64,000 nucleotides of DNA. Source: Ensifer sp. BR816 (lineage in GTDB: Bacteria > Pseudomonadota > Alphaproteobacteria > Rhizobiales > Rhizobiaceae). Positions 12,460-38,407 of this stretch are shown here, in pieces. Position 1 is the stretch's first letter; every line of letters begins with the position of its first letter. A program made the translations under genes and the position numbers. The DNA is taken from contig NZ_KB905370.1 in NCBI RefSeq assembly GCF_000378985.1, positions 3,803,342 through 3,867,341 on the forward strand, written 5' to 3'. A model generated the notes under the pieces. That model saw nothing but the letters and a program-made list of their open reading frames with translations. It was not told the origin of the DNA and searched no databases.

Positions 12460-12471
12460 CGTCGCGGCTCC

Positions 12472-20917: not shown

Positions 20918-22357
20918 TCACGCGTTCAACACCTTGCCATAAGCGTCGAGCACGCTTTCCTTCATCATCTCGGAGAGCGTCGGATGCGGGAAGATCGTGT
21001 GCATCAGCTCTTCCTCGGTCGTCTCCAGATTCATGGCAACGACGAAGCCCTGGATGAGCTCGGTGACTTCCGCGCCCACCATGTGCGCGCCGAGGAGCTC
21101 GCCGCCCTTCTTGTCGAAGATCGTCTTGACCATGCCCTGGTCCTCGCCGAGCGCAATCGCCTTGCCGTTGGCGCCGAAGCTGTAGCGGCCGACGCGAATG
21201 TCCCGGCCGAGCTCTTTGGCCCTCGCCTCGGTGAGGCCGACGGAAGCGACCTGCGGGTCGCAATAGGTGCAGCCCGGGACCTTGCTTTTGTCGAGCGCAT
21301 GGACGCTTGGGACGCCGGCAATCTTCTCGACGCAGATGACGCCCTCATGCTCGGCCTTGTGCGCCAGCATCGGCGGACCCGCAACGTCGCCGATCGCATA
21401 AATGCCTGCGACGTTCGTCTTGCCGTAGCCGTCGGTGACGATGCAGCCGCGGTCGGTTTTGACGCCGAGCGCCTCCAGGCCAAGGTCTTCGATATTGCCC
21501 TGTACGCCAATGGCTGAGATCAGGCGATCGGCCTTGATTTGCGTTGTCTTGCCGTCTTTCGTCTCGACATGGGCCGTGACGTCATTGGCGCCCTTCTCGA
21601 CCTTCGTCACCTTGGCGTCGGTGAAGATCTTCATGCCGCGCTTTTCAAGCTGCTTGCGGGCAAAGGCGGAAATCTCGGCATCCTCGACCGGCATGACCTG
21701 CGGCAGGAGTTCGACGACCGTGACGTCGACGCCCATGGAAAGATAGAAGCTGGCAAATTCGATGCCAATCGCGCCGGATCCCATGACCACCATGGTTTTC
21801 GGCAGCTCTTCGGGCTTCATCGCCTCGAAATAGGTCCAGATCAGCTTGCCGTCAGGCTCGATGCCGGGCAGTGCCCGCGGCCGGGCGCCGGTCGCAATGA
21901 TGATGTGCTTGGCCGTATAGGTGCCCTCGCCCTTCACGCCCTTCGGCACGGGATTCTGCGGCTGGACGGCCGGCTTCGACGGTGCGCCGACGACGATCTC
22001 GCCGGGCTTCGTCAGCTTGGCCTCGCCCCAGATCACGTCGATCTTGTTCTTCTTCATGAGGAAGGCGACGCCACCGTTCAGCCGCGCCGAGACGCCGCGC
22101 GAGCGGGCAACGACATCCTTGACGTTGGCTGTCATCTTGCCTTCGAGCGTCAGGCCATAGTTTTTGGCGTGGTTGGCATGGTCGAGAATCTCGGCGGAGC
22201 GAAGCAGCGCCTTCGTGGGGATGCAGCCCCAGTTCAGGCAGATGCCGCCCAGATGCTCGCGCTCGACGATCGCCGTCTTCAAGCCCAGCTGCGCCGAGCG
22301 GATGGCGGTGACATAGCCGCCCGGGCCCGAACCGATAACGATGACGTCGTAGGACAT
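20918..22357 (-). CDS. lpdA: Dihydrolipoyl dehydrogenase (E3)
   Basis: FAD-dependent E3 that reoxidises dihydrolipoyl groups of E2 with NAD. 479 aa; start ATG 22357 gives MSYDVIVIGSGPGGY. Redox-active disulfide C40-C45 in GGICLNWGCIPTKAL, NAD motif MGSGAIGIEFASF near 185, and C-terminal catalytic FPHPTLSE (H458, E463). Last gene of the operon DRL-E1alpha-E1beta-E2-Lpd, 84 bp after E2. It is the only Lpd in the window, so it may also serve the two acoABC cassettes, which lack their own. Confidence 0.95.
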   Translation of the reverse strand: MSYDVIVIGSGPGGYVTAIRSAQLGLKTAIVEREHLGGICLNWGCIPTKALLRSAEILDHANHAKNYGLTLEGKMTANVKDVVARSRGVSARLNGGVAFLMKKNKIDVIWGEAKLTKPGEIVVGAPSKPAVQPQNPVPKGVKGEGTYTAKHIIIATGARPRALPGIEPDGKLIWTYFEAMKPEELPKTMVVMGSGAIGIEFASFYLSMGVDVTVVELLPQVMPVEDAEISAFARKQLEKRGMKIFTDAKVTKVEKGANDVTAHVETKDGKTTQIKADRLISAIGVQGNIEDLGLEALGVKTDRGCIVTDGYGKTNVAGIYAIGDVAGPPMLAHKAEHEGVICVEKIAGVPSVHALDKSKVPGCTYCDPQVASVGLTEARAKELGRDIRVGRYSFGANGKAIALGEDQGMVKTIFDKKGGELLGAHMVGAEVTELIQGFVVAMNLETTEEELMHTIFPHPTLSEMMKESVLDAYGKVLNA

Positions 22358-22441
22358 GAGCATTCCTTGAAAAAAAAATTGGGGGACGCGCCTCGGCTCG
22401 ACTGCGCCGCGGCAACGATCCCCCATAGTTGCGGGAGGAAA

Positions 22442-23728
22442 CTAGACCAGCATACTCAATGGATTCTCGATGAGCGCGCGGAACTTCGCGAGAAGCTCTG
22501 CGCCCAGCGCACCATCCACGGCACGATGGTCCGTGGACAGCGTTACGCTCATGACCGTAGCAACGCCCACCCCCCCTTCTGCGGTTACCACCGGCCGCTT
22601 CTCTCCGGCGCCGACCGCCAGGATCGTGGAGTGGGGGGGATTGATGATCGCAGCGAATTCCTTCACGCCGTACATTCCGAGGTTTGACACCGCTCCCGTG
22701 CCGCCTTGGTACTCGTTGGGCTTCAGCTTTCCTGCCTTGGCACGCGCGGCCAAGTCTTTCATCTGGTTCGAGATGGTCGAAAGGCTCTTTTGCTCCGCCT
22801 GGCGGATGATCGGGGTGATAAGCCCACCGGGGACGGAAACCGCCACGCCGACATCGGAATGGCTGTGGCGCACCAGATGCTCGTCCGTCCAAGACACGTT
22901 AGCGTCCGGAACACCCGCCAGAGCGAGTGCGTAAGCCTTGATGACGAGGTCGTTCACCGAGAGCTTGTAGGCCGGCACGCTCTCGATCAGCGGCGCCGCA
23001 GCATTGAGCTCCGCGCGCAATTTCAGGAGCGCGTCGAGCCGGCAGTCCGCCGCAAGGTAGAAGTGCGGAACACTGCTCTTGGCCTCGACGAGCCGCCGTG
23101 CGATCGTCCGACGCATGGAGCTGTGCGCCTGAAGTTCGTAGGACCCTTCGGGAAAATGCCGAAGCGCGTTCTCGCCTGCGATGCTCCCCGGAGCCTCCGA
23201 CTGAACCGCTGCGGGCTCGGCCTGTGCCCCGGCATCGACGACCGTGTTGGAGACTCCCAGGACATCGGCACTGACGACGCGGCCACGCGGGCCGCTGCCG
23301 TTTAGCCTGGCTAGATCCAGCTCTCGCTCCCGCGCGAGGCGTCGTGCGAGCGGCGTGGCGCGGGGGGCGCTGTCAACTTTCTGTTCGACTGCGAGCTCCG
23401 CGGCCGGCGTCTTTGCTTCGGACACCGGCAGCGGACTTTCGGCGGTGGCCGAAGGCGCAAGAGGGACGGCCGTCTCGTTGACGGCCTCTCCCTCGGCATA
23501 GATCCACGCGACGGCCGAGCCGACCGGGATATCCACGCCTTCCTTGCCGGTCACGTTACGCAGGACTCCGCTCGCCGGCGCGTCGATTTCCATTGCGGCT
23601 TTGTCGGTCTCGATCTCGAAAAGGACGTCGCCCTCCTTCACGGCATCGCCCTCGCCGAAGAACCACTTCGAGATCTTGCCGGTCGCCATGTCCATGTCGA
23701 CCTTCGGCAAAATGACTTCGGTCGCCAT
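22442..23728 (-). CDS. Dihydrolipoamide acyltransferase (E2), three-domain type
   Basis: E2 core (428 aa) unlike the AcoC proteins elsewhere in the window. Lipoyl domain 1-78 with K43 in IETDKAAME, Ala/Pro/Glu-rich linker to about 120, peripheral-subunit-binding domain 122-156 (ATPLARRLARERELDLA then GSGPRGRVV), and chloramphenicol-acetyltransferase-like catalytic domain with TDHRAVDG near the C-terminus (H401, D405). It takes the acyl group from the adjacent E1 and passes it to CoA. Two bp after E1beta. The hybrid of acetoin-type E1 size and PDH-type E2 architecture also occurs in other acetoin and branched-chain complexes, so substrate must be judged from context. Confidence 0.93.
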   Translation of the reverse strand: MATEVILPKVDMDMATGKISKWFFGEGDAVKEGDVLFEIETDKAAMEIDAPASGVLRNVTGKEGVDIPVGSAVAWIYAEGEAVNETAVPLAPSATAESPLPVSEAKTPAAELAVEQKVDSAPRATPLARRLARERELDLARLNGSGPRGRVVSADVLGVSNTVVDAGAQAEPAAVQSEAPGSIAGENALRHFPEGSYELQAHSSMRRTIARRLVEAKSSVPHFYLAADCRLDALLKLRAELNAAAPLIESVPAYKLSVNDLVIKAYALALAGVPDANVSWTDEHLVRHSHSDVGVAVSVPGGLITPIIRQAEQKSLSTISNQMKDLAARAKAGKLKPNEYQGGTGAVSNLGMYGVKEFAAIINPPHSTILAVGAGEKRPVVTAEGGVGVATVMSVTLSTDHRAVDGALGAELLAKFRALIENPLSMLV

Positions 23729-23730
23729 AC

Positions 23731-24729
23731 CTATCGCACTCCCCTCGCAAGGCCGCGGGCCGCATCGATTATGTCCGGTACCTGCGGGACGGCAGCCTTT
23801 TCCAGCTCGGGATTGTAGGGGATCGGCGTCTCGGACCCGCCGAGGCGCAATATCGGAGCATCCAAGTAGTCGAACGCCTCGCTTTCGGCGATCATTGCAC
23901 TGATCTCCGCCCCGACACCGAGCGTTTTAACGCCTTCATAAACGCAGATCAGCCGGGAGGTCTTCATGACGCTGGCGATGACCGTCTCCCGATCGATGGG
24001 GCGGATTGATCGCAGATCGATCACTTCGGCGCTGATGCCCTCGCCGGCAAGCACTTCCGCTGCCTCCAGGGCCTTGTGAACCATGATAGAAGTTGCGACT
24101 ATCGAGACGTCGCGCCCTTCCCTCCGGACCTCCGCCTTGTCGAGCGGCACCGTGTAGTGTCCCTCGGGAACCGGCCCCTTCATCTTGTAGAGCAGCTTGT
24201 GCTCGAAGATCATCACCGGATCCGGATCCGCCACGGCAGCAAGGAGCATGCCTTTCACGTCATGCGGCGTCGCCGGCTGAATGACCTTTAGCCCTGGCAC
24301 GTGACCAAGCCATGCTTCCAGGCTCTGGCTGTGCTGTGCCGCAGCCCCGGTTCCGGAGCCGGCCGGGAACCGCATTACGAGTGGAACCGACACCGCACCG
24401 CCAAGCATGTAGCGCATCTTGGCCGCCTGGTTGACGATTTGCTCCATTGCGAGCGCGGCGAAATCGGAAAACTGGAATTCGAAGATCGGTCGCAAGCCGG
24501 TGACCGCTGCGCCGACGGCGACACCTGCGCCGCCAAGCTCGGAAATGGGGGTATCCATGACGCGGTCGGAGCCGAAGCGGTCAACCAGATCGCCGGTCAC
24601 CTGAAAGGCGCCGCCATAGACGCCGATGTCCTCGCCCATGAGGATCACGCGCTCATCCGCTTCCATGGCGATCGCCATGGCTTCCTGGATGGCTTGGGAG
24701 TAGCTGATTTCTCTGACTGGCGCGTTCAT
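23731..24729 (-). CDS. 2-oxo acid/acetoin-type dehydrogenase E1 beta subunit (module C)
   Basis: 332 aa, start ATG 24729 ([18 protein letters not shown]), one bp after the E1alpha stop. Blocks [32 protein letters not shown] and [15 protein letters not shown] identify the pyrimidine and C-terminal transketolase domains. Absence of an N-terminal lipoyl domain separates it from alphaproteobacterial pyruvate dehydrogenase PdhB and fits an acetoin-type E1. It is clearly a paralog of, not a copy of, the AcoB proteins in modules A and B. An in-frame extension upstream would overlap E1alpha by 100 bp and lacks conservation. Confidence 0.92.
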
Positions 24730-24730
24730 G

Positions 24731-25765
24731 TCATGCCTCGAGCGTGTAGACGTTGTCAGCGAGGCCATCGATTGACGGCATCGGGCTAGCCTTCGCGAAC
24801 TCGATACCAGCGTCGATTTCCTGCTGCACACTGCCGCGGATCGCCTCTAGCTCGTCCGACGTCGCGATACCGAACTCGATCAACTGAGCTTCGTAGCGTT
24901 TGATCGGATCCCGGTTGGTCATCCAGTCGTCAATCTCGTCCTTCGTGCGATAGCGATTGCGGTCGCTTTTGGAATGTCCGCGATACCGGTAGGTCTTGCA
25001 TTCGATGAGCGTCGGTCCGTCGCCGCGGCGGGCCCTTTCAACCGCCTCATGGGAGGCCTCCGCGACCTCCGACAAAACGTTGCCGTCGACGATCACACCC
25101 GGCATGGAGTAGGCGGCCGCGCGATCGGCGACGTTGGCGACCGCCGTCGAACGGGCGGTCGAAGTCGACATGCCGTAGCCGTTGTTTTCGCACACGAAAA
25201 TGACGGGCAACTTCCAGATGGCAGCCATATTCAGCGCCTCGTGAAAGGCACCCTCGTTGTTCGCGCCGTCACCGAAGAAGCAGACAACGACCTTGCCCGT
25301 GCGAAGCCGCTTTGCGGTGAGCGCCGCGCCGACGGCGATCGGAAGCCCGCCCCCTACGATCCCGTTCGCGCCAAGGTTCCCAGTCGACACATCGGCGATG
25401 TGCATCGACCCGCCGCGACCTGCACAGTAGCCGGTAGTCTTGCCAAAGAACTCTGCGAACATCCGCTTCACTTCGGCGCCCTTGGCGATGCAGTGGCCGT
25501 GCCCTCGGTGGGTAGAGGTTATCTGGTCCTCGTTGACAAGAGGCATGCAGATTCCCATTGCGCTCGCTTCCTGACCGATGGAAAGATGCATCGTCCCGTG
25601 AATGAGCCCGCGCATGTAGCACTCTTCGGCACCTTCCTCGAACCGGCGAATGAGGTGCATCTTTCGAAGCGCATCAAGAAGCTGCTCGCGTTCGTATTGG
25701 CGGTAGATGAAGGGCAGATTGCTGGTCTCGCCTTCCACTTGCATCGCCTGGGCGCGTCCCGACAT
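24731..25765 (-). CDS. 2-oxo acid/acetoin-type dehydrogenase E1 alpha subunit (module C)
   Basis: 344 aa TPP-binding subunit. Start ATG 25765 follows AAAGGAGG at 6-nt spacing; a TTG two codons earlier is less likely. TPP motif GDGANNEG to CENNGYG, and [12 protein letters not shown] block. Two bp after the DRL gene, so DRL and E1alpha are almost certainly translated from one message. In this family E1alpha attacks the keto carbon of a 2-oxo acid or alpha-hydroxyketone with thiamine diphosphate. The gene pairing with a 1-deoxyketose-forming enzyme argues for a hydroxyketone substrate. Confidence 0.92.
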
Positions 25766-25767
25766 GA

Positions 25768-27093
25768 TCAAGCCTCCTTTCCGTAAACGAGCGCATCCTG
25801 TCGCGCGCGGAGTTCCGCAATGCGCGAGCCGGGCGCAACCGACGCGTTCTGATAGGTTATAAGCTCTCCTTTACGGATCGGCTGCGTGACGGTACCGCCC
25901 TGAAGGAGGCCGCACGGGATTGCGGAGGAGGACCGCGCCTCCGGCGCCGTCATGATCCAGGCCCGATAGGAGTATTCACCGATGGCGTCGAGCGTTTCGC
26001 CGGGCGCAAGGTCCTTCTTGGCGACCGCGCAGACCTCCGCGACCGGGGTCGACAGCGGCACCATGTCCGGCTTACCGTAGAGCACGACACGCGCACAGGT
26101 GAGCGGGACCTCGAGCGAGGTGAGGTGATAGGGGCGATGGAACGTGAAGTAGGGCCCCTTGCCCATCTTGAGGTCTTCCATGCGCTCGGAAATGCGCGGA
26201 TGTGACATGTCGGCGACCACGAAAACGCCCGGCGCCACACCCTTGCCGATGGAATAGTCGACCACACCCGCCTTCGAGAGGACGCCCCCGTCCTTCTCCG
26301 GGATCAGGACCGAGGAAAGCTTGTCCAGCGTGGCCGCCGGGCCGTGCATGCCGGGCTTGTCAGGGACTAGTCCCGTGGCATTCGCGATCGCGGCCATTTC
26401 GACCATTGTCTTGGAACCGTCGACGAACTCCACGAGCATGCGGACATTCATGTTCCGGCGCGCGGCTTCCTCGGCATAGTCGTCTGGAACAGCATCGACG
26501 TTCAGCGGATTGTTCTTGCCTTTGCCGGCCGCAACGATCGGATGCCCCATGGCCGACACGAACTCGATCAGCTCAATGCATGAAGACGGCTCGTCACCCG
26601 CCCCGAGCGAGTAGGTCACGCCAAGCCGCTCGGCTTCGCTCTTGAGATAGGCGCCGATCGTTACATCGGCCTCAACATTCATCATCACCAGGTGCTTGCC
26701 GTGCTCCATGGCGGCGAGCCCGATCTCGGCGCCGACTGCCGGCACGCCGGTGGCATCGATGACCACGTCGATGAGGCCACTGTTGAGAATGTTGGTCGAA
26801 TCCGCGGTGATCGCGACCTTTCCGCTCTCGATGGCGGTGTTCAGCTCCATCGAATTGACCGCGTCGCGATGATAGCCGTCAGATTGGTAGGCGATGTCCA
26901 CTGCAGCGCGAGCGCGGGCGACGTTCAGGTCGCAAATCGCGCCAATTTCGATGCCTGGCATGTGGGCGACACGGGTCACGATGTCGGTGCCCATTTCTCC
27001 ACTGCCTACCAGGCCTATACGGATGGGCCTCCCCTCCTCCTCGCGTCGCATGAGGTCTCGCGCAAGGCCCGTTGGCGCAACATTGATGGGCAT
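25768..27093 (-). CDS. DRL/DXR-II-like NAD(P)-dependent reductoisomerase with SAF domain
   Basis: 441 aa protein of the homoserine-dehydrogenase-like family with a C-terminal SAF domain, to which Brucella DRL belongs (about 440 aa; converts 1-deoxy-D-xylulose 5-phosphate to 2-C-methyl-D-erythritol 4-phosphate). Start ATG 27093 after GGGAGGAC. N-terminal Rossmann motif [14 protein letters not shown] near 25-38, central catalytic region with [17 protein letters not shown] near 190-206 and GKGKNNPLN near 220, SAF-like end ([18 protein letters not shown]) near 400. It heads the operon and is tightly coupled to E1alpha. Not all DRL-family members have DXR activity, so the exact substrate (2-C-methylerythritol 4-phosphate or another branched or deoxy sugar phosphate) is inferred. 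Confidence 0.82.
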
Positions 27094-27558
27094 TTCAGTC
27101 CTCCCGATATCCACTGCCAGCAATGTAGGTAGTGTACATTTGTACTTCCGTCAACATATTTGTTCGCGCTTGACGATCGTCATGACAGCGCTTGGGGAGC
27201 GCTTTCGCGGCAAGGATGGGGATTTCAAGGGGTTAGACTGGGAGCTTAGGAATCTCGCGTGCTCCTTTTGCGGAAGGCATCAAACTGGACCGATGCTCAC
27301 GTGCAGACGCGGGTTTAGGCTCCGCCGATCCCCGGCAGGCAACGCGGAAGGCTGCCAAATGTCTTGCACATTCGTCGGGCTTGCCTGAAACCAGGGATGC
27401 TGTGGCGGCCATCGCAAACCAAATTTATGCGAAAAGACGGGACGTCCATGCAAAGAGTGCACCGACTCACACGAGCAGAATAGAACAAACAGTCGAGACT
27501 TTTGAATAATGTTCGTGAAGGCGAACGCCAAACGGATGCCGCGCCTTCTCCGCGACGT
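27094..27558. promoter_or_regulatory. 465-bp intergenic region upstream of the DRL operon
   Basis: Lies between the SorC-type regulator gene (ending 27559) and the DRL start, both minus strand, and must hold the promoter of the DRL-dehydrogenase operon. Visible structure: 12-bp perfect palindrome TGACGATCGTCA at 27171-27182, and GTACATTTGTAC near 27134-27145. Open frames here are short, with no ribosome site or recognisable product. Confidence 0.4.
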
Positions 27559-28539
27559 CTATGTGTTGGTCTGCTCAGCCGCCAACAGCAACGCCTTTGC
27601 CGTTTGCTCATCGGTTACAAAAGTGGTCGGCTTGATGGTCGAAAGAGAGGCGAGCAGCGCGTGCAGTTTTTCCGGACCGCCCGAGATCAGCACACGCTCG
27701 GGAGTACGACGCAAGCGATCAAGATTCACCGAGATCACGCGGGAATTAACCTCGTGATCTATCAGGTTGCCCTGCTTGTCGATGAAGTTGTAAAGGACGT
27801 CGCCGACTGCGCCCGCGTCGATGAGGGAGCGGCGGTCAGCCTCGCTCAAATAGCCCGTGCGATAGCTTGTTGTAAGGGCCGAAATCCCGCCGACGGACAA
27901 TAGGGCAACGTCCAGTTTGTCCGCCATCTCAAAAATTGCCGCAAGCCCGCACCTCTCGAGCAGCGCATGCTTTGTTTCCGGACTGTCGACCACAGCCGGC
28001 GCGGGGACCAGGAATCCCTCCCCCATGAATAGTTCCGCGAACTGCCAGGCAAATTCGGCTGGATTGAAACGCCGCGCCGCAGAAATGCCCCCCAACAAGG
28101 AGACGACGCGGAAGTCTTCGAGAGTGGCTCCAGCAATGAAAGGCAGCGTATTGTAAAGGGTTCGCCCCCAGCCCACGCCGACGATCATCCCAGATTTCAT
28201 CATCGTGGATATGAGCGCTCCCGCGGCAGCGGCGATAACTTTCGTAGGGTCTCCGTCGGGATCACTGAACGGCGCGACGATTGCCCGCGTGACCCCGAAG
28301 GCGATCTCAAGGTCCCTTTCGAGCGCCACCATGTCTGAGAGCGGCGACGAAATGGAAACGCGGACCTCATTGCGACGCCGCGCCTCCGCCAAGAGTCGGA
28401 CGACCATCACTCGATTGATGCCAAGCTGTTTGGCAATGTCGTTCTGCGTGTAGTTCTCCACGTGATACAGCCACACGACGCGGGCTCGCAGTCTCTCAGA
28501 CTCGCTCTGGGCCATCACAACTGGAGACGTGATCTGCAT
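27559..28539 (-). CDS. SorC-family sugar-responsive transcriptional regulator
   Basis: 326 aa; start ATG 28539 after GAGGAACGCAAA. N-terminal HTH (YTQNDIAKQLGINRVMVVRLLAEARRR, residues about 30-56 in two overlapping blocks) followed by the SorC/DeoR sugar-phosphate-binding domain (VGWGRTLYNTLPF near 128, VALLSVGGISALTTSYRTG near 220). Relatives such as EryD regulate erythritol and polyol catabolism in rhizobia and Brucella. It sits between the DRL operon and the divergent transporter-kinase operon, so it probably controls both. The expected inducer is a phosphorylated sugar, in keeping with the PfkB kinase downstream. Confidence 0.88.
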   Translation of the reverse strand: MQITSPVVMAQSESERLRARVVWLYHVENYTQNDIAKQLGINRVMVVRLLAEARRRNEVRVSISSPLSDMVALERDLEIAFGVTRAIVAPFSDPDGDPTKVIAAAAGALISTMMKSGMIVGVGWGRTLYNTLPFIAGATLEDFRVVSLLGGISAARRFNPAEFAWQFAELFMGEGFLVPAPAVVDSPETKHALLERCGLAAIFEMADKLDVALLSVGGISALTTSYRTGYLSEADRRSLIDAGAVGDVLYNFIDKQGNLIDHEVNSRVISVNLDRLRRTPERVLISGGPEKLHALLASLSTIKPTTFVTDEQTAKALLLAAEQTNT

Positions 28540-28973
28540 TTTGCGTTCCTCATGGGTTCTACAGGCGTAGCGGTCGATATCACACTGCCGTCGCGATTTC
28601 ACCTCCTCCTGCCGGGGCGAACACGAACGGCAAAAGGCTCAAAGGCCAGAAGCCGTTCCGGCCAAGACGAGGGACGCACTTTATAGTCAGACCTACCGTC
28701 GGCCCACTCGCCTGCCATTGTCTCCGCAACACAACGAATATTCGCACATATTGACGTTATTTGCCATTGATGTTCGCTTTTGCGCAGCCAGCGCTCCCGA
28801 AAAAGGGGTTGACATCGGGGCATCGTGAACACATTGTATTTTTGGATGGCAATTGTTCTATCGCTCGTGAAGCGGAGATCGCCGCCGGAATGGCACGGAA
28901 TGGAGGCCGTGCCAAAACAGTCTTGCCTCCATGGGCATTCAACTGATTAGTTTACATTGGGGAGGAACAGCTA
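28540..28973. promoter_or_regulatory. Divergent promoter region of module C
   Basis: 434 bp without a gene between the SorC-type regulator and the transporter operon. A candidate sigma-70 -35 box TTGACA at 28809-28814 has only a weak -10 (CATTGT or TTGTAT, 28832-28839). An imperfect inverted repeat, GAACACATTG (28827-28836) against CAATTGTTC (28850-28858), overlaps it and is a candidate regulator site. Position of the true start is unknown. Confidence 0.35.
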
Positions 28974-30533
28974 ATGACTATCTTGAATACGGGTGTGTCG
29001 CGCCGCGGCTTTCTGCGGCAGACCGCAGTGTTGGGCCTGGCCGCGGGTGCGGCCTCCAGCCTGAGGCTGCCGGCCTTCGCCCAGTCCGATCTTCCGGATA
29101 TCCAATCCATTCTCGACAAAATCTCGGTTAAGGACTACGTGCGAGAGGACTACCGCAAGCTCTACTCGATGTCGGACGAACCGTTGTGGGATCCGGCAAA
29201 AGACTGGATCAGAACGGTCGATTGGGAACAGGTACGTTCAGAACAAGCAGGTAAAACCGTCCGCTTCGCCGTCGGAGCAGCAGACCAGGAATCCGCGGCC
29301 GAGGGTCTCAAGCCTTTCGAACAGTTGTCCGGCATCAAGGTGGAGCTTGTTCCGATCCCGGACGACAGCTTCTACGACAAGGCCGTCTCCGAGTTCATTT
29401 CAGGCAACGCTTCCTTCGACGCGCTGCAATTTTTCTCCCCGTGGCTGGGTGATTTCGCCGGTCCAGGATTCCTGTACGATGATCTCGGCGCGTTCGTCGA
29501 AAAGTGGAAGCTTCCGCTCGACGACTTTTACGACACATACCGCCTCAATTACGGGTATTTTGGGGGAAAGCTCGTCGGCATTCCGTTCGATTGCGACATT
29601 CAGATGGTGCACCTTCGCAAATCGATCATGGAGAAGATCCTTGGCGGAACGATCGATCGTGCGAGCTCCGTTCCGACTTATGACGAACTCATCCGCATTA
29701 CCGCCGAAGCAAATAAACTTGGCGGTGGCGTATCGGGCGTCGGCCTGATGGCGGCGCGTGGCTTCTGGGCCACCTATACTTGGGAGCACATCGCCGCGCA
29801 GGCCGGGTTGAAGCTGTTCGACGACCAGTGGAATCCGCAACTGACGAGCGATGCGGGGATGAAGGCCATGGACATTATCATGGCGCTTCAGAAGAATGCC
29901 ATCGAGGGCGTCTCGGGCGCCGGCTGGGGCGAAAACCGTGCCGCTTGGCTCGGCGGTCAGGTTGCTGCCAATATCAGCTGGCAAGACAGCGGCACGCAGG
30001 CCATGCGCCCGGACCAGTCGAAAATCGTTGATGATTTCGTGACGATTTATGAGCCGCGGATTTCGGGCGGTGTGTTCGCTCCGCCGAACATTGCAGGCTC
30101 GACCTCTTGCGTCGCTGCAACCGCGCAGAACCCCGAAGGCGCGTTCCTGATGCTCGCCTTCCTTACGACCTCCTCCATCATGGCCATGAATGAGGCCAAC
30201 GCCAACGGCGTAGCCCCCGGCTATCGCTCCGTGTTGGCGAATGAGCGGTTAAGAGCGGTCAGCCAGCCGGCAAAGGTGTGGGCGGATAGCCTTGAGCACG
30301 CTTGGTGCGCGCCCCGCCTTCCGGGCATGTTCGAGATGGAACAGGCCCTCGGCAACGAGATTAACCGCGCAGTTACTGGCCAGATCTCCGCGAAGGAAGC
30401 TCTTGAGAACGGCCAGGCGGCGTGGAAGAGTATCATGGAGAAGAACGGCTTCTCAGGCGGAAACGGCCCCGTCGCTTATGCAGATGTGGCACCCGGCATG
30501 TATGTTGGTGGCGGCAAGGCGTTGCCGTTCTAA
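28974..30533 (+). CDS. Extracellular solute-binding protein (family 1), Tat-exported
   Basis: 519 aa periplasmic binding protein of a CUT1-type ABC transporter. Tat signal SRRGFLRQTAVLGLAAGAA, cleaved around PAFA-QS. The mature protein has the family 1 fold (TVRFAVGAADQESAAEGLKPFEQLSGIKVE, NASFDALQFFSPWLGDFA, and a GAFLMLAFL region near 387-395), with about 60 extra residues before the first strand. Start ATG 28974 has GGGGAGG 12 nt upstream. First gene of an operon with two permeases, ATPase and PfkB kinase. This transporter class usually imports disaccharides, glycosides or polyols; the ligand here is unknown, with a polyol favoured by context. Confidence 0.88.
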   Translation: MTILNTGVSRRGFLRQTAVLGLAAGAASSLRLPAFAQSDLPDIQSILDKISVKDYVREDYRKLYSMSDEPLWDPAKDWIRTVDWEQVRSEQAGKTVRFAVGAADQESAAEGLKPFEQLSGIKVELVPIPDDSFYDKAVSEFISGNASFDALQFFSPWLGDFAGPGFLYDDLGAFVEKWKLPLDDFYDTYRLNYGYFGGKLVGIPFDCDIQMVHLRKSIMEKILGGTIDRASSVPTYDELIRITAEANKLGGGVSGVGLMAARGFWATYTWEHIAAQAGLKLFDDQWNPQLTSDAGMKAMDIIMALQKNAIEGVSGAGWGENRAAWLGGQVAANISWQDSGTQAMRPDQSKIVDDFVTIYEPRISGGVFAPPNIAGSTSCVAATAQNPEGAFLMLAFLTTSSIMAMNEANANGVAPGYRSVLANERLRAVSQPAKVWADSLEHAWCAPRLPGMFEMEQALGNEINRAVTGQISAKEALENGQAAWKSIMEKNGFSGGNGPVAYADVAPGMYVGGGKALPF

Positions 30534-30537
30534 GTCC

Positions 30538-31485
30538 ATGGCACATTCAACTCACACACTTGAAAAGGGGGCGGCCAAGGCCGCTCCCGCTGCAGCGGTG
30601 TACTCGATCCGCCGCCCACGCTCGGCGACCGCTAAGAAGATGTTTCCCTATCTTCTTGTCGGACCCGCGGTCCTGTACCTGCTCGCGATCACGCTCTACC
30701 CTGGCCTGTTCGCGATGTATCAGAGCCTTTTCGTCGTCAAGTTCGTGAACTGGTCATGGGCCGGCCTCGGGAACTACACGCGCATCATCCAGGATCGGGA
30801 ATTCTGGGCTGCACTGGCCAACACTGCGATCATCGGCGGCCTGTCATTGAGCCTCCAGACAATCATAGCAATGACGGTTGCGTTCTATTGCTACCGCGAC
30901 CCATTTGTGCGCGGCTGGCGGATCGTCTTCCTGATGCCCATGCTGTTCATGCCGTCCGCGGTAGCATTCATCTGGAAGCTCGCCTTCAACGACGGCCGCG
31001 TGATTTCCGATCTGCTGATGTCGGTCGGACTGGTGTCGAACAATGTCGACTGGCTGTCGTCCGTATGGCTGGCACGGCTGACCCTTATCGTTGCCGACGT
31101 CTGGCAGTGGACCCCGTTTCTGTTCATCATCTTTGTGGGTGCACTCCAGGGACAGGACGAGGAAATCGAAGAAGCCGCCCGGCTCGATGGAGCAAGCTGG
31201 GGGAGCATCTTCTGGAACATCTCGCTTCCGATGATGCGGCCGATAATCGTCGTCGCGGTAACGCTGCGAGGCATCGATATCACGACAATGTTCACCAATG
31301 TCTACATTATGACCCAGGGCACACCTGGCGGCGCGACAGAGACAATGAGCTACTTCATCTACCGCCAAGGCTTCCGGATGTTCAACTTCGGTTATGCATC
31401 CGCCGCCTCTGTCCTCATGCTCCTCATCACGATTGTCATCGCCCAAACGATCGTCAAGCGTGCATTCAAGTCAGGAAAGTCGTGA
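30538..31485 (+). CDS. Sugar ABC transporter permease, MalF/UgpA-like
   Basis: 315 aa inner-membrane subunit. Start ATG 30538 lies 5 bp after the binding-protein stop. Six transmembrane segments; the first begins at MFPYLLVGPAVLYLLAITL (about residue 35). EAA loop EEAARLDGASWGSIFWN near 215-231 precedes the last two helices. It pairs with the next gene product to form the channel. A proline/alanine-rich cytoplasmic N-terminus of about 30 residues precedes helix 1. Confidence 0.9.
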   Translation: MAHSTHTLEKGAAKAAPAAAVYSIRRPRSATAKKMFPYLLVGPAVLYLLAITLYPGLFAMYQSLFVVKFVNWSWAGLGNYTRIIQDREFWAALANTAIIGGLSLSLQTIIAMTVAFYCYRDPFVRGWRIVFLMPMLFMPSAVAFIWKLAFNDGRVISDLLMSVGLVSNNVDWLSSVWLARLTLIVADVWQWTPFLFIIFVGALQGQDEEIEEAARLDGASWGSIFWNISLPMMRPIIVVAVTLRGIDITTMFTNVYIMTQGTPGGATETMSYFIYRQGFRMFNFGYASAASVLMLLITIVIAQTIVKRAFKSGKS

Positions 31486-31486
31486 G

Positions 31487-32329
31487 ATGGCCAGCGTTCG
31501 CAAATCCGGTGGTGACAACCTTCTTGTCCGCTACATCATTCTCGTCAGTTGGGCGATGGTCTGCCTGGTGCCAATCCTGTGGTTCCTGACGATCGGCTTC
31601 CGCCCGCGCACCGAGATCATTGTTCCAGAACCCATCTACTGGCCGACCTGGAGCCTGGATGCATGGCGCCTGCTTGTAAGCGATTGGCCCATCGCACTCT
31701 ACCTGCGAAACTCGATTCTGGCTGTAGCGGGGTCCGTCGTCATCGACCTTGTCCTTGCGATCCCCGCAGCTTTTGCGCTTGCCCGATACGAGTTCAAGGG
31801 GCGCGAGGATATCGGCTTCTACATCCTTTCCACACGGATGATGGCACCGGCGATCGTCGCTGTACCGATCTTCTTCCTGTTCAAGAACATCGGCCTGCTC
31901 GACTCCGTCTGGGCACTCATGCTCATCTACGCGGCCATCAATCTCAGTCTCGTGACCTGGATCATCCGCAGCTACATGCTGGATATCCCGAAGGAGCTCG
32001 AGGACGCGGCGCGTACCGACGGCGCAGGCGACCTGACCATCCTCTGGGAGATCATGATACCGGCCTGTCTGCCCGGCATCATCACCGCGGCGGTCATCGC
32101 GGCCATTTTCGCCATCAATGAGTTTCTCTTCACACTCCTCATCGCCTCCACGTCGAAAGCCTACACGATGTCGGTTGCCCTCGCCAATTTCACCGGCGGC
32201 TCCGATGGGGTGATCTACAACGCAATCGCACTCGTCTCGTTCATCGCCTTCGCGCCGATCCTGATCCTCGTGATCCTGATCCAAAAGCATCTTTCGCGCG
32301 GGCTGACGATGGGTGCCGTGAAAGGATAA
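31487..32329 (+). CDS. Sugar ABC transporter permease, MalG/UgpE-like
   Basis: 280 aa, start ATG 31487 one bp after the preceding stop. Six hydrophobic segments and the EAA loop LEDAARTDGAGDLTILWE near 180-197. The extracytoplasmic loop PEPIYWPTWSLDAW near 45-58 is typical of the MalG branch. Forms the heterodimeric pore with the previous subunit and docks the ATPase encoded 3 bp downstream. Confidence 0.9.
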   Translation: MASVRKSGGDNLLVRYIILVSWAMVCLVPILWFLTIGFRPRTEIIVPEPIYWPTWSLDAWRLLVSDWPIALYLRNSILAVAGSVVIDLVLAIPAAFALARYEFKGREDIGFYILSTRMMAPAIVAVPIFFLFKNIGLLDSVWALMLIYAAINLSLVTWIIRSYMLDIPKELEDAARTDGAGDLTILWEIMIPACLPGIITAAVIAAIFAINEFLFTLLIASTSKAYTMSVALANFTGGSDGVIYNAIALVSFIAFAPILILVILIQKHLSRGLTMGAVKG

Positions 32330-32332
32330 GCC

Positions 32333-33376
32333 ATGGCTTCCATTCTACTCAAGAACGTCGTCAAGAGCTTCGGCTCGTTCGTCGGCGTACAGGATATGAA
32401 CCTCGACGTTGTCGACGAAGAGTTCCTGGTACTTCTCGGTCCATCTGGTTGCGGAAAAACGACGACCATGCGGATGATTGCTGGCCTTGAACACCCGACG
32501 GAAGGCGAGATCCGCATCGGCGATGCGTTGATGAACGACATCGACGCCCGTGACCGGGACGTGGCCATGGTTTTCCAGGGGTATGCCCTTTATCCGAATA
32601 TGTCGATTTACGAGAACATCCGCTTCCCGTTGAGGATGCGTCAGGTGCCGAAGGCAAAGCATGATGACCTCATCCGGCGCGCAGCGGAAATGGTCGAATT
32701 GGGTCCTTTCCTGGATCGCAAGCCCGGCGCTCTCTCGGGGGGACAACGTCAGCGCGCGGCGCTCGCGCGCGCAATCGTGCGACAACCGCAGGTATTCCTC
32801 ATGGACGAGCCCTTGTCCAATCTGGACGCTAAGTTGCGCGCCAGCATGCGCGTACAGATCAAGCATATGCAGCGGGAGCTGAAGGTGACCACCGTGTACG
32901 TGACCCACGACCAGATCGAGGCGATGACGCTGGCCGATCGCATCGTGATCATGAACAAGGGCGTCATCCAGCAAATTGGCACGCCCGACGACATCTATTC
33001 AAACCCTGCCAACACCTTCGTGGCCGGTTTTATCGGCTCGCCGCCGATGAACCTCATTGCCGGCACGGCACAGAATGGAACATTCTCCTCCGCCGGCATC
33101 AGGGTTCCCTGTCCTGCAAATCTCTCCGGAAACATCACGCTTGGCATCCGTCCTGAGGACTGCCAGATTGGCGGAGACAACCTTCAGGGGCAAGTCTACG
33201 GCGTGGAGCCGACCGGCGACATCACCTACCTCACGGTGCGCACAGCGAACAAGAACATCGAGATCAAGGCGGGTCGTGAATTCCGCGCCCCAATCGACAG
33301 CGCCATTGCGGTGGGTTTCGATACAAGCCGCCTCTACTTCTTCGGCGAAGACGGCTATCGTGTGGGGGTGAACTGA
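32333..33376 (+). CDS. ABC transporter ATP-binding protein, MalK/UgpC-like
   Basis: 347 aa ATPase. Walker [11 protein letters not shown] near residues 36-45, Q-loop VFQGYALYPNM, signature LSGGQRQR, Walker B FLMDEPLSNLD, switch histidine YVTHDQIEA. The regulatory MalK-type C-terminal domain (about 240-347) includes LGIRPEDCQ. Its stop overlaps the kinase start by one base (TGATG), a sign of translational coupling of uptake to phosphorylation. Confidence 0.92.
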   Translation: MASILLKNVVKSFGSFVGVQDMNLDVVDEEFLVLLGPSGCGKTTTMRMIAGLEHPTEGEIRIGDALMNDIDARDRDVAMVFQGYALYPNMSIYENIRFPLRMRQVPKAKHDDLIRRAAEMVELGPFLDRKPGALSGGQRQRAALARAIVRQPQVFLMDEPLSNLDAKLRASMRVQIKHMQRELKVTTVYVTHDQIEAMTLADRIVIMNKGVIQQIGTPDDIYSNPANTFVAGFIGSPPMNLIAGTAQNGTFSSAGIRVPCPANLSGNITLGIRPEDCQIGGDNLQGQVYGVEPTGDITYLTVRTANKNIEIKAGREFRAPIDSAIAVGFDTSRLYFFGEDGYRVGVN

Positions 33377-34371
33377 TGTCGACGACATTCGATCTTAGCT
33401 GCGTCGGTTTCTACACCTTTGACGCTCTCTGCCGCCCCGTCACGGCGATACCGCCCGGAGGCCAGACATGTTTCGTGGAGGACTACACGCTCGCGGTCTC
33501 GGGCGCGGCGGGATCGGCCGCCATCGTCGCCGCCAAATACGGCCTGCGCGTCCAAGCGGTCGGAGGTGTGGGGTACGACGACATGGGAGATTGGGTCCGC
33601 ATGAAACTCAGCTCATACGGCGTCGACATCCGTATGATGCAGCGCTGCAAGGGCTTCTCGACGTCTTCCTCGATCGTGACCACGCGTCCGGACGGCACGC
33701 GTCCGGCCCTTCACAAACGGGGCGCTACGGACGCATTCTACGTGTCAGATTCAGCCATTGATGGATTGCTGGACACAAAAATCCTCCATATCGGCGGCGT
33801 TGGCCTCATGAATCGCATGGATGACACTGGCAGGACGGCGGAACTGATGTCAGAGGCGCGCCGCCGGGGCGTGATCACCACTCTTGACGTATTCGCTTCG
33901 ACGCCGGAAGACCTGCCGAAGGTCGAGGCTCTTCTCCCCTACACGGACTATTTCCTTCCATCCGAAGAGGAGGCCAAGGCGCTGTCCGGATTGACGGAGA
34001 ACCGCGACCTTGCCCACTTCCTGCTGAGCAGGGGCGCCGGGTGCGTTATCCTGACACTTGGCGCCGATGGCGCCTATTATCTAGACCAGTCGGGTCTGGA
34101 GTTCCATTCTCCAGCCTTCAAGGTTGAGGTAAAATGCACGTGCGGATGTGGAGATTGCTTCAATGGCGGATTTGCCGCCGGCCTTGTCAAGGGCCTTTCA
34201 CCCTACGATGCCGTCGAGGTCGGCCAAGCGTCTTCGGCGCTGAACGCGACCGGTCTCGGCAGTCAGGCGGGCGTTGCAAGTTACGAGGCGACTCGGCGAT
34301 TTATAGAGTCCACTCCGAGACGCGGAGGAGCTATGTTGGCGGCAGCCGGCGCAGCGAAAGCGATGCAATGA
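33376..34371 (+). CDS. PfkB-family sugar/polyol kinase
   Basis: ATP-dependent carbohydrate kinase of the ribokinase/PfkB fold (331 aa). Early glycine-rich segment VSGAAGSAAIVAAKYG near 39-54 replaces the common GGxxxN signature. The second signature reads CTCGCGDCFNGGFAAG near 253-268, with the catalytic-base aspartate in CGDC. ATP-site blocks VILTLGADGAYYL and LPSEEEAKAL are present. Start ATG 33376 overlaps the ATPase stop. Its position after the transporter and opposite the DRL operon makes it the likely first enzyme after uptake. If the pathway is as proposed, it would form a polyol phosphate such as 2-C-methylerythritol 4-phosphate. Confidence 0.88.
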   Translation: MSTTFDLSCVGFYTFDALCRPVTAIPPGGQTCFVEDYTLAVSGAAGSAAIVAAKYGLRVQAVGGVGYDDMGDWVRMKLSSYGVDIRMMQRCKGFSTSSSIVTTRPDGTRPALHKRGATDAFYVSDSAIDGLLDTKILHIGGVGLMNRMDDTGRTAELMSEARRRGVITTLDVFASTPEDLPKVEALLPYTDYFLPSEEEAKALSGLTENRDLAHFLLSRGAGCVILTLGADGAYYLDQSGLEFHSPAFKVEVKCTCGCGDCFNGGFAAGLVKGLSPYDAVEVGQASSALNATGLGSQAGVASYEATRRFIESTPRRGGAMLAAAGAAKAMQ

Positions 34372-34389: not shown

Positions 34390-35085
34390 ATGGGCGTGCG
34401 GCCACAATTCGCTCCAGACGCAGCGCAACTGAAGGACGCGCTGCGTGGATTGCGGTATGCGTTAAAGAGAGGATGTGACGCCGTGCAGGGTACGCCGACG
34501 AAACTTCCTTCCCCCGCCTCAAAGATAGCGTTGACAGCGCTCCGGGAAATGGGGCTGCTCGCCCGCAGCGTCGACCAGATGGTAAGCAGCGTCGTCCATA
34601 CGGTTTTCGGCGAGGTGACGCTTGGATCTCACAAGCTCCAGGACATGATGGCTCCCGGCGGGCAATCAGAGGAATTCTCCGCTGTATTCTACGAGACGAT
34701 GAAAATCGTCCTCAGCGAACTGGGCGCCAGCAGGGCGCTGGTCAGCCAGAGCGCTGGGCGAAAGGCTTTTGGTCAGGTCACGTCGCGCGCCGCGCCAGAG
34801 CATTTCGCCGCGCAACTAGCCCTCCAACTTCTCAGGGAAGAGCCTATCCGGATCGATTATCTAGACGCCCATTCCCCCGCATCGAAGGAAACCCTCGCGC
34901 AGGTCGCCGTCTTTTCCGTCTTGCTGTACCTGCTATCGGACCGCGAGAACGGAGATTACGCGAAGATGGTTCAGGCCGCGACCAATCTAACGACCGCGCT
35001 TCAGGACGAGATTTCGCAAGCCTTTCGGACGCAGGACCGCGCGAAGTTATCTACGTTTTTTGCGAGGTACGCGGCCCATGTTTGA
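34390..35085 (+). CDS. Hypothetical protein, first of a coupled pair
   Basis: 231 aa, unrecognised. It begins at ATG 34390, 18 bp after the kinase stop. No signal peptide or membrane helix is evident. Predicted mainly helical, with a hydrophobic patch LAQVAVFSVLLYLLSD near 177-192 and a basic N-terminus. Its end overlaps the next gene by 8 bp, so the two products are probably made together and may interact. Orientation and spacing suggest it belongs to the transporter-kinase operon, but nothing indicates an enzymatic role. Codon composition looks like that of its neighbours. Confidence 0.65.
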   Translation: MGVRPQFAPDAAQLKDALRGLRYALKRGCDAVQGTPTKLPSPASKIALTALREMGLLARSVDQMVSSVVHTVFGEVTLGSHKLQDMMAPGGQSEEFSAVFYETMKIVLSELGASRALVSQSAGRKAFGQVTSRAAPEHFAAQLALQLLREEPIRIDYLDAHSPASKETLAQVAVFSVLLYLLSDRENGDYAKMVQAATNLTTALQDEISQAFRTQDRAKLSTFFARYAAHV

Positions 35086-36424: not shown

Positions 36425-37384
36425 TCAGATTGCCTGCGGCCTGTAATCGCTCGCGGCCACCGGCATGACGCCCCTCAACAGTGCAATCGACTTCTCCAGC
36501 CCTTCGAGACTGTTGAGCAGCACATCCTCATGCTCGACCGACAGCCAGCCGTCATAGCCGGCCATCTTGAGCCGATAGCAGAATTGCCGCCACCATTGCT
36601 CGCCATGGCCGAAGCCGAGCGTGATGTAGGACCAGCTACGCGCTGGAATGTCCATCAATGAGCCGTTTTCCAGGAGCGAGGTCGTCGCCTGGATAGGAGC
36701 GTTGAGCATCGTGTCCTTGGCATGGACGTGATAGACCGCTTCCCCAAGGGCCTCGGCCGCGACGAGCGGATCGGCCCCCATCCAGAACAAATGCGAAGGA
36801 TCAAGATTGGCGCCGACGACCGGACCGATGGCGGCCCGAAGCTTCAGAAGGGACGGAACGTTGTAGACGCACTGATTGCCGTGCAGTTCCAGCGCGATGC
36901 GCTCGACGCCGCTCTCCCTCGCAAGCACCGCGATCTCCGCCCAGAACGGCAGCAGCTTCTCCTCCCATTGGTAACGGAGAATTTCCTGCGTCTCCGGCGG
37001 CCAGGAGGAGACGACCCAGTTCGGCATCAGGTCGCCGGTGCGACCGGCGGGAAGACCCGACATCGCGCAGACGGTCTTGATGCCCATCTCACCGGCGACG
37101 CGGATCGTGTCCTTGAGGCATTTGCCCTGTTCCGGCTGGGTCGGATGAAGCGGATTGCCGTTGGCGTTGAGCGCGATGATCTCGAGCCCGCGGCTCTCAA
37201 AGGATTTCATGAAGCTGCGGCGCGCATCGGCACTCGCCTTCATCGTCTCGAGGTCGAAATGCGGCGCGGTCGACCAGCCGCCCGTGTTGACCTCGACACC
37301 CGAGACGCCCAGGCGGGCGGCATTGTCGAGAAGCGCATCGAAGGTCAGGCCGCCAAGACAGTCGGAAACGAAGCCCATTTTCAT
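36425..37384 (-). CDS. Sugar isomerase/epimerase, xylose-isomerase-like TIM barrel
   Basis: 319 aa metal-dependent isomerase-fold protein. Candidate ligands: E166 (ALELHGN), D194 region (ANLDPSHLFW), H220 region (YHVHAKDTM) and a C-terminal glutamate in LSVEHED near 290. Last gene of the operon SBP-permease-ATPase-permease-Gfo/Idh-TIM, 12 bp after the Gfo/Idh gene. It probably acts on the keto-sugar or inosose produced by that dehydrogenase. The sequence is distinct from the module A isomerase. Confidence 0.85.
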   Translation of the reverse strand: MKMGFVSDCLGGLTFDALLDNAARLGVSGVEVNTGGWSTAPHFDLETMKASADARRSFMKSFESRGLEIIALNANGNPLHPTQPEQGKCLKDTIRVAGEMGIKTVCAMSGLPAGRTGDLMPNWVVSSWPPETQEILRYQWEEKLLPFWAEIAVLARESGVERIALELHGNQCVYNVPSLLKLRAAIGPVVGANLDPSHLFWMGADPLVAAEALGEAVYHVHAKDTMLNAPIQATTSLLENGSLMDIPARSWSYITLGFGHGEQWWRQFCYRLKMAGYDGWLSVEHEDVLLNSLEGLEKSIALLRGVMPVAASDYRPQAI

Positions 37385-37396
37385 GTCACTATCCTT

Positions 37397-38407
37397 TTAT
37401 CGGTTGTACAGGGACGGTCTTTCCGCCCTTGTTATGGTAATGCGCTCGCCCTTGCGCAGGGCCTCAACGCCGGCCTCGGCGACGAGGGCCGCGCAATAGC
37501 CGTCCCAGGCGTCGGAGGCGATCGGCGGGAAAACGCTGGTTCGAACGAAGTTCAGGAAGGCCTTGTTCTGCAGTCGGTAGGCCTCGGCAAAGCGCGGGCG
37601 CCAATCGGGCGCATAGCGCTCGTAGGCCATCAGGTCGCTGTTGTGGCGCGTGTAGACAGGTGCGTTCAGGGAAATCGATCCCTTCTCGCCGATCAGCTCA
37701 CCGCGAACGTCGTAGCCGTAGGCGGCATTATTGTTGATCTCGATGTTGACGAGCTGTCCCCTGTCAGTTTCGAGAACCATGAAGACCGGAGCGCCGGTCC
37801 TTGTCGCGTCGACGCCCGTCGGCTGGAAAACAGTGATGGTCGTGTAATCGGCGCCGAGCACGAAACGCGCGACGTCGAACTCATGCGGTGCGGAATTGGT
37901 GATCGCCATCTGGCCGGTAAAGTTCGCTGGCGCTTCGACATTGCGGTGGAAGTTGTGCATCATGATCGCGCCGCCAAGGGAGCCGTCGTCAAGCAATGCC
38001 TTCATATCACGGTATGACGGATCGAAGCGCCGCATGAAACCGAGTTGGACGAACTGACGACCGCGTGCAACTTCCGCGTCGATTACGGTAAGGCACTCCT
38101 TCGAACTCTGCGATAACGGCTTTTCGCAGAGCACCGGCTTGCCGGCCTCGATAGCAGCGAGTGACAGCGAGGCATGGGTTTCATCGGGACTGGCGATCAG
38201 CACGGCATCGACGTCGCCGCGCGTGATCGTCGCCAGCGGGTCGGAGGAGACGTCAACGGCACCGCATTCCTCAGCCACCTTTCGGGCGCGCTCCGACGAG
38301 GCATCGCACACCACCTGAAGGGTTGCCCCCGGCAGATCTTCGGAGACAATCCGGGCATGGTCGGCGCCCATGATACCGGCGCCGATGATCGCTATTCTGA
38401 CAGACAT
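37397..38407 (-). CDS. Inositol 2-dehydrogenase-like oxidoreductase (Gfo/Idh/MocA)
   Basis: 336 aa NAD(P)-dependent dehydrogenase. Rossmann motif AIIGAGIMGADHARI, hallmark CEKPLSQS near residue 93, FMRRFDPSY near 124-132 and catalytic block SAPHEFDVARFVLG near 170-183 with the expected H and D. This is close to the IolG/IdhA pattern (length about 330). Nine bp after the upstream permease gene. In the operon it would oxidise an imported cyclitol or sugar, with the following TIM barrel taking the product further. Confidence 0.88.
   Translation of the reverse strand: MSVRIAIIGAGIMGADHARIVSEDLPGATLQVVCDASSERARKVAEECGAVDVSSDPLATITRGDVDAVLIASPDETHASLSLAAIEAGKPVLCEKPLSQSSKECLTVIDAEVARGRQFVQLGFMRRFDPSYRDMKALLDDGSLGGAIMMHNFHRNVEAPANFTGQMAITNSAPHEFDVARFVLGADYTTITVFQPTGVDATRTGAPVFMVLETDRGQLVNIEINNNAAYGYDVRGELIGEKGSISLNAPVYTRHNSDLMAYERYAPDWRPRFAEAYRLQNKAFLNFVRTSVFPPIASDAWDGYCAALVAEAGVEALRKGERITITRAERPSLYNR

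Follow-up and report, generated by a model that had tools for sequence, protein, structure and literature searches.

We examined a 64,000-nucleotide (nt) stretch of the 6.95 Mb genome of Ensifer sp. BR816 (contig NZ_KB905370.1, positions 3,803,342 to 3,867,341; hereafter the window), in which a DRL gene, encoding a type II 1-deoxy-D-xylulose 5-phosphate (DXP) reductoisomerase (DXR-II), lies beside the genes of a dehydrogenase complex dependent on thiamine pyrophosphate (TPP) and of a sugar transporter (Table 1). On the minus strand, the genes run in the order DRL, E1alpha, E1beta, E2 and Lpd, with gaps of 2 nt between DRL and E1alpha, 1 nt between E1alpha and E1beta, and 2 nt between E1beta and E2; the E2/Lpd gap measures 78 nt with the Lpd start at 22363, taken from the Sinorhizobium americanum annotation, and 87 nt with a later start. 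A SorC-type regulator gene is located 5' of DRL on the same strand, and an operon on the plus strand (28974-34371), divergent from SorC, encodes a solute-binding protein (SBP), two permeases, an ATPase and a PfkB kinase, the last base of the ATPase gene being the first of the PfkB gene (33376). The same locus is found on plasmid A of S. americanum CCGM7, where DRL is 99.5% identical to that of the window. These coordinates and this gene content, including the 2 nt gap between DRL and E1alpha followed by E1beta, E2 and Lpd, and the kinase closing the transporter operon, agree with a first-pass annotation of the DNA. That annotation had also placed DRL opposite both SorC and the transporter operon, which is correct for the operon; SorC itself lies on the strand of DRL and is divergent only from the operon.

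Table 1. Features of the DRL locus in the window
Feature	Position	Strand	Basis
Lpd, dihydrolipoyl dehydrogenase (E3)	20918..22363	-	TIGR01350 587 bits, cut-off 408.8; start as in S. americanum
E2, pyruvate dehydrogenase (PDH)-type dihydrolipoyl acetyltransferase	22442..23728	-	TIGR01349 447.9 bits, cut-off 445; PF00198, PF00364, PF02817 (lipoyl, E3-binding, catalytic domains)
E1beta, TPP-dependent dehydrogenase beta subunit, without lipoyl domain	23731..24729	-	NF006667 401.4 bits, cut-off 321; PF02779, PF02780
E1alpha, TPP-dependent dehydrogenase alpha subunit (putative DXP cleavage)	24731..25765	-	PF00676 308 bits
DRL, DXP reductoisomerase type II	25768..27093	-	PF21135 229 bits, cut-off 27; 3UPL 685 bits
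SorC/DeoR-type regulator, sugar-binding domain	27559..28539	-	PF04198 183 bits, cut-off 27; start as in S. americanum
Candidate SorC operator, GAACA/TGTTC inverted repeat 5' of SBP gene	28827..28858		by eye
ABC transporter SBP	28974..30533	+	PF01547
ABC sugar permease 1	30538..31485	+	open reading frame (ORF); counterpart in L117 annotated sugar ABC permease
ABC sugar permease 2	31487..32329	+	ORF; counterpart annotated in L117
ABC transporter ATPase	32333..33376	+	ORF; counterpart annotated in L117
PfkB-family sugar kinase (putative formation of 2-C-methyl-D-erythritol 4-phosphate)	33376..34371	+	PF00294 144.6 bits, cut-off 25.8
Uncharacterised ORF c24	34390..35085	+	phmmer matches in L033, L034, L117, L132
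Uncharacterised helical protein c9, 196 aa	35078..35668	+	c9 profile; AlphaFold (AF2) model

To place the DRL gene product, we searched 397 genomes of the order to which the host belongs and obtained DRL-family matches in 212, including distant ones of the DLO type. From 94 matches with at least 47% identity to the window DRL, a set of 80 loci in 64 genomes was drawn (the alpha set); seven further matches at this level (87 of the 94 in all) had no E1 nearby and lie outside the counts given below. PMC3847144 sets DXR-II apart from the sister families DLO1 and DLO2 and names the residues T229, R320, K191, K193, E174, F178 and Y322, of which T229 and R320 separate it from DLO1/DLO2 and K191 and K193 anchor fosmidomycin. 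The window DRL, which aligns with Brucella DRL (3UPL) over 435 residues without a gap and lies far above the PF21135 cut-off, carries all seven residues and H250; T229, R320, K191, K193, E174, F178 and H250 are present in all 80 sequences of the alpha set, and Y322 in 75. Judged by sequence, the window DRL is a DXR-II: the 3UPL match and these residues do not assign it to a subfamily of different known function, a case that the first-pass annotation had considered, and they speak against a DLO-type oxidoreductase, which we rejected. A search of viral contigs with the Priestia DRL gave no relative. The host carries one ordinary DXR-I and a single DRL, that of the window. This DXR-I makes DRL dispensable for the isoprenoids of the host, and we rejected a role of DRL as the isoprenoid DXR that the host requires.

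We then compared the neighborhoods of DRL genes in the alpha set with those in a second, mostly Firmicute set of 79 loci, which was taken from the best 80 of 555 relatives and favors Firmicutes because it was found with a Listeria sequence first, and with a control of 20 high-ranking DLO-type loci of the same order (32-40% identity, one, G181, having been passed over). E1alpha was found near DXR-II in 28 of the 80 alpha loci, 27 of which also have E1beta, and in 29 of the 79 mostly Firmicute loci (both subunits in 28). SorC genes occur in 64 of these 79 loci, and all but one of the 29 E1alpha loci also contain SorC or glucitol phosphotransferase system (Gut-PTS) genes; the remaining one, L182, is a short contig. 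None of the 20 control loci contained E1, Gut-PTS, GutM, SorC, PfkB, FGGY or the protein c9 of Table 1, and some have ABC genes nearby. One locus (L088) was dropped from the alpha counts, reducing them from 29 to 28, because its E1alpha groups with another host paralogue in the E1alpha tree; L110, where E1alpha stands at the stretch end, was retained. A quick DRL tree with 159 rows, computed without bootstrap, requires 18 changes of the E1-linked label compared with 47 when shuffled, which places the linkage in the alpha branch as well as in both branches of the Firmicutes. The linkage between DRL and E1 is thus more than chance, and the survey for conserved neighborhoods proposed in the first-pass annotation shows it to recur in Alphaproteobacteria, Firmicutes and one Rubrobacteraceae locus.

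The E1alpha of the window scores under the PDH cut-offs (TIGR03182, 383.4 against 393.85; TIGR03181, 252.5 against 411.35), and is 41% identical to the PDH E1alpha of the host and 50% identical to the E1 of a Mycetohabitans acetoin cluster. E2 narrowly passes the PDH acetyltransferase cut-off (Table 1) and is 61% identical to host PdhC, and Lpd is 96% identical to 309 aa of the Lpd of the host PDH operon, the portion present in stretch L213. In a tree of 69 rows that included PDH E1alphas and three acetoin-cluster E1alphas, the E1alphas of linked loci form a group of their own, separate from both of these sets (90/91, with moderate support for the group as a whole and one very long branch in the outgroup). 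The group consists of 28 alpha rows, 29 Firmicute-side rows, one of which is from a Priestia plasmid, and one C. difficile row from a SorC-E1-E2-Lpd cluster with no DRL beside it; the Rubrobacteraceae row falls just outside. The complex had been called acetoin-type, a description that holds only in part: E1alpha lies outside the acetoin group, and E2 and Lpd are PDH-like. From their sequences, the acetyl-handling parts (E2 and Lpd) look PDH-derived and the substrate-recognizing E1alpha does not. Because E2 and Lpd are PDH-like, the transferred acyl group is probably acetyl. DXP has the structure CH3-CO-CHOH-R, the group that acetoin-type E1 splits. Purified PDH uses pyruvate and glyceraldehyde to form deoxyxylulose, and DXP rises about 20-fold with AceE mutants (PMC3424233); this synthesis is a chemical precedent in the opposite direction. 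In S. meliloti Rm41 and A. tumefaciens CFBP7129, a LipA gene follows Lpd in the same run. One locus (L228) has both a sigma-54 regulator and an E2 with an acetoin-type annotation. In two others (L218 and L219), an acetoin-type E2, by Pfam with an alpha/beta hydrolase in L218, directly follows DRL with no adjoining E1, and both genomes carry a DRL-type E1 elsewhere.

The uptake genes accompanying the linkage are interchangeable. The window shares the ABC and PfkB set with S. meliloti Rm41, where the operon lies on pRM41A, and with A. tumefaciens CFBP7129. A Priestia plasmid combines a transporter of the MFS type and an FGGY kinase with a complete E1/E2/Lpd set, and in Rhizobium rhododendri, Nitratireductor and Aminobacter the uptake set comprises GutM, Gut IIC, IIB and IIA and an HPr/EI protein, which merits attention because sugar PTS are rare in Alphaproteobacteria. 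Gut-PTS IIC and IIB genes occur in 62 of the 79 mostly Firmicute loci and in 12 of the 80 alpha loci. A glucitol-type PTS often stands in where ABC and PfkB are missing and is the commonest alternative. Most of these modules would deliver a phosphorylated sugar or polyol. By the title of Testa et al. 2004, the sorbitol PTS is said to carry 2-C-methylerythritol into Salmonella. As for the regulator, DeoR and LsrR models remained below cut-off and the sugar-binding domain PF04198 was above it. GAACA-type half-sites are located 5' of the SBP gene (28809-28858) and 5' of DRL (27155-27165), and an inverted repeat similar to the GAACA/TGTTC repeat of Table 1 is seen in S. meliloti Rm41 (by eye, with no significance test). 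A repeat search of the intergenic regions yielded no clear shared operator; the repeat is a possible SorC operator.

We further analyzed which other enzymes of the 2-C-methyl-D-erythritol 4-phosphate (MEP) pathway accompany DRL. Of the 64 genomes of the alpha set, 27 have an E1-linked DRL and 37 only E1-free DRL. Among the 27, 20 have another enzyme for the DXR step (DXR-I in 7, and a second, unlinked DRL without DXR-I in 13), and in the remaining seven (G336, G264, G183, G322, G372, G188 and G085) neither DXR-I nor another DRL of at least 47% identity was found; G336 has the DRL closest to that of the window among the seven (83% identity). All 33 genomes checked for IspH have it (split into two pieces in G183 and G372). 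DXS is found in six of the seven; in the seventh, G372, the missing full-length match may be assembly loss. Since the genomes are partly draft (G183 is 91% complete, and G372 is in about 260 contigs), the apparent lack of DXR-I could likewise be assembly loss in single cases. As seven genomes show no other DXR, the linked DRL probably acts on DXP and MEP; barring a gene lost from the assemblies, it would make MEP in these seven genomes. Of the 37 genomes with only E1-free DRL, 33 lack DXR-I, so the E1-free copies are probably biosynthetic.

These data bear on two alternative explanations. According to one, DRL serves biosynthesis as a spare DXR and has no relation to the neighboring PDH-like complex, transporter and kinase. 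DXR-II has been described as a biosynthetic enzyme (PMC3847144), and the 33 genomes just mentioned fit this explanation; it conflicts, however, with the presence of DXR-I in the host, with the recurrence of the linkage across phyla with one E1 group and its absence from the 20 DLO loci, and with the recurrence of uptake, kinase and SorC genes with the linkage. We therefore regard it as improbable. According to the other, the complex is an accessory PDH, or works toward DXP and supplies DRL from pyruvate. The formation of deoxyxylulose by PDH (PMC3424233) and the lack of a full-length DXS match in G372 would be in line with this; nevertheless, E2 and Lpd would be useless for DXP synthesis, the host has DXS and its own PDH, and E1alpha scores under the PDH cut-offs, and we consider this explanation very improbable.

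In our assessment, the locus is likely to be an operon for the breakdown of 2-C-methyl-D-erythritol (ME) or of a branched polyol very close to it. ME would be imported by the ABC transporter and phosphorylated to MEP by the PfkB kinase; DRL, operating in the oxidative direction, would convert MEP with NADP+ to DXP and NADPH. The E1alpha/E1beta TPP enzyme would then attack the keto group of DXP and break the C2-C3 bond, freeing glyceraldehyde 3-phosphate, and the acetyl unit would move via the E2 lipoate to CoA, giving acetyl-CoA, after which Lpd would reoxidize the lipoate with NAD+. SorC may sense a phosphorylated intermediate and control both operons. We infer each substrate, including that of PfkB, as well as the direction of the reactions, the cleavage of DXP, the regulation, and the choice of ME itself over a relative. 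The overall route from ME through MEP and DXP to acetyl-CoA and glyceraldehyde 3-phosphate, as put forward in the first-pass annotation, gains support from the DXR-II identity of DRL, the DXR-I of the host, the recurrent neighborhood, the genomes in which the linked DRL is the sole DXR found, and the glucitol-type PTS as an alternative means of uptake.

Several observations weigh against this route. DXR favors MEP at equilibrium. No NCBIfam kinase model exceeded its cut-off for PfkB. There are 52 of the 80 alpha loci counted as E1-free, and 50 of the 79 mostly Firmicute loci show no E1alpha. Two Phyllobacterium DRLs (L116 and L133) with 81-83% identity to that of the window have no E1 and adjoin ribose-type ABC genes. 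E1 is not needed for the retention of DRL, since 33 of the 37 genomes with only E1-free DRL are without DXR-I, and four genomes combine DXR-I with only E1-free DRL, one of which (G155) has a DRL-type E1 elsewhere. The enzymes downstream of DRL also vary, and DRL operons may therefore serve several substrates or cleavage routes: many DRL-PTS operons lack E1 and encode other enzymes; a set of class II aldolase, a TIM-like protein and YjbQ lies inside DRL-glucitol-PTS operons of Firmicutes (L147, L151 and L155 among them) and occurs in 9-10 loci, of which L175 also has E1; FSA is present in nine loci and transketolase in eight, both together with DRL and Gut-PTS in the Anaerococcus locus L155; and RpiB, or a zinc alcohol dehydrogenase with a 2-hydroxyacid dehydrogenase, is found in others. 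From the literature, a dxr mutant fed 2-C-methylerythritol makes MEP, and the same paper credits the phosphorylation in Salmonella to an ATP-dependent kinase and not to the PTS (PMC3994034); wild-type AceE gave no increase of DXP in vivo (PMC3424233).

The variety of downstream enzymes, together with the presence of several DRL operons per genome (two DRLs each in L138 and L144, and L146 and L149 together on a single contig of Enterococcus avium), suggests more than one substrate. The same architecture and chemistry could thus act on a different branched polyol (2-C-methyl-threitol, for instance, or a 2-C-methyl polyol with six carbons) to yield acetyl-CoA and another aldose phosphate, with DXR activity being shared or a side activity; the glucitol PTS is best known for hexitols. 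Against this possibility, the linked DRL is the sole DXR found in seven genomes, the fosmidomycin-anchoring K191, K193 and T229 are kept throughout the alpha DRLs, and the sorbitol PTS is said, by the title of the 2004 report, to carry ME itself. We consider another polyol unlikely and retain ME, or a very close relative, as the probable substrate.

Beyond the kinase gene, the plus strand continues with c24 and c9. A profile of c9, a family with an invariant WPEG motif, matches 34 of the 397 genomes of the order, namely each of the 27 in which DRL is E1-linked and 7 of the 370 others (Fisher test, P about 1e-35). It lies within the DRL stretch in 18 of the 80 alpha loci, all among the 28 linked loci, and farther off in the remaining genomes; among 385 genomes of the class, it is present in the host only. 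Outside the linked genomes, c9 stands beside a DRL-type E1 and Gut-PTS in G155 and G162 and beside Gut-PTS and SorC in G104, and G308 has a DRL-type E1 elsewhere; no such neighbor and no DRL-type E1 was found in G135, G384 and G329, and G310 and G282 have a DRL-type E1 but no c9. The AF2 model of c9 is helical and confident (pLDDT 86.1, pTM 0.84). c9 has no Pfam match, and its identification as a phage protein or a protein of known fold was rejected (no PHROG at E 0.1, a best PDB sequence match of E 0.18, and no Foldseek match in PDB under E 0.001). The profile and the model suggest that c9 represents a new protein family without a known fold that is tied to the DRL-E1 system. For c24, there was no Pfam or PHROG match, and phmmer matches were limited to four Sinorhizobium/Rhizobium-type loci (Table 1).

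More broadly, much of the DXR-II family may be catabolic, with ME-utilization operons widespread across Firmicutes and Rhizobiales-type bacteria, DRL kept as the only isoprenoid DXR in some lineages after loss of DXR-I, and c9 as part of the system in the order of the host; we judge the chances of this extended view to be about even. Uptake would proceed by ABC and PfkB, by MFS or ABC with an FGGY kinase, or by a glucitol-type PTS, and DXP would be cleaved by the dedicated E1/E2/E3 complex or by FSA/transketolase or aldolase modules. If true, it explains the patchy distribution of DXR-II and its occurrence in bacteria without the MEP pathway. For Anaerococcus prevotii and Finegoldia magna, PMC3847144 lists DXR-II without any other enzyme of the MEP pathway or any of the mevalonate (MVA) pathway; it reports confirmed DXR-II activity in Finegoldia and raises the question of how DXR-II evolved despite being redundant. 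A catabolic role would explain DXR-II in both genera. A 2026 review gives no defining DXR-II pattern except an excess in some pathogens (PMC13001223).

In Arabidopsis, free methylerythritol has been measured and its glucosides named (PMC6850158). Among the best-ranked matches in the open literature, which leaves subscription papers mostly outside, no title or abstract opening concerned bacterial methylerythritol breakdown or DXR-II in a catabolic operon, and matches for methyltetrol or methylerythritol as a carbon source were unrelated by title. While the enzyme families themselves are known, we found no description of the pathway, of the proposed E1 activity or of c9 in the literature searched. 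The proposal offers a reason for DXR-II beside DXR-I. If it is true, the complex represents a new enzyme activity that splits DXP and transfers the acetyl unit, a carbon source for root and plant bacteria can be named, and a DXR-II gene alone is no proof of isoprenoid synthesis.

Some further observations concern neighboring genes and related loci. Two near-identical acetoin-type E1alpha/E1beta gene pairs lie about 10 kb apart on the minus strand of the window (1-3176 and 10325-13449), the second also with an E2 bearing a hydrolase-like part; they are a recent duplication. Beyond the locus, IolE-like and IolG-like genes on the minus strand (36425-38407), below model cut-offs, probably belong to another sugar cluster. 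In L094, L089 and L112, E1-free alpha DRLs stand beside an FGGY kinase, joined in L094 by ABC genes and an alcohol dehydrogenase of the iron type; these loci may represent a further catabolic variant.

The locus can be compared with four known systems. With the Brucella DXR-II (PDB 3UPL/3UPY, PF21135), the window DRL shares the gapless alignment of 435 residues and K191, K193, T229, H250, R320, E174, F178 and Y322; unlike Brucella-type DXR-II, it sits in a locus for uptake, kinase and E1-E2-E3, in a host with DXR-I, and would run in reverse. With the sorbitol (glucitol) PTS of Salmonella, relatives of the locus share homologous Gut IIC/IIBC/IIA/GutM genes beside DRL-E1, whereas the window has ABC and PfkB instead. 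Acetoin systems typically have an E2 with an alpha/beta hydrolase and an adjoining sigma-54 regulator, AcoR. The locus resembles acetoin dehydrogenase (AcoABC, AcoR) in its two-subunit E1 with E2/E3, which would split CH3-CO-CHOH-R to acetyl-CoA and an aldehyde; however, its E1alpha falls outside the three acetoin E1alphas in the tree, its E2 has PF00198 and no alpha/beta-hydrolase domain, and SorC takes the place of the sigma-54 regulator. Finally, E2 (61%) and Lpd (96%) are similar to the corresponding parts of the alphaproteobacterial PDH complex of the host, whereas E1alpha is only 41% identical and under the PDH cut-offs, and E1beta is without a lipoyl domain.

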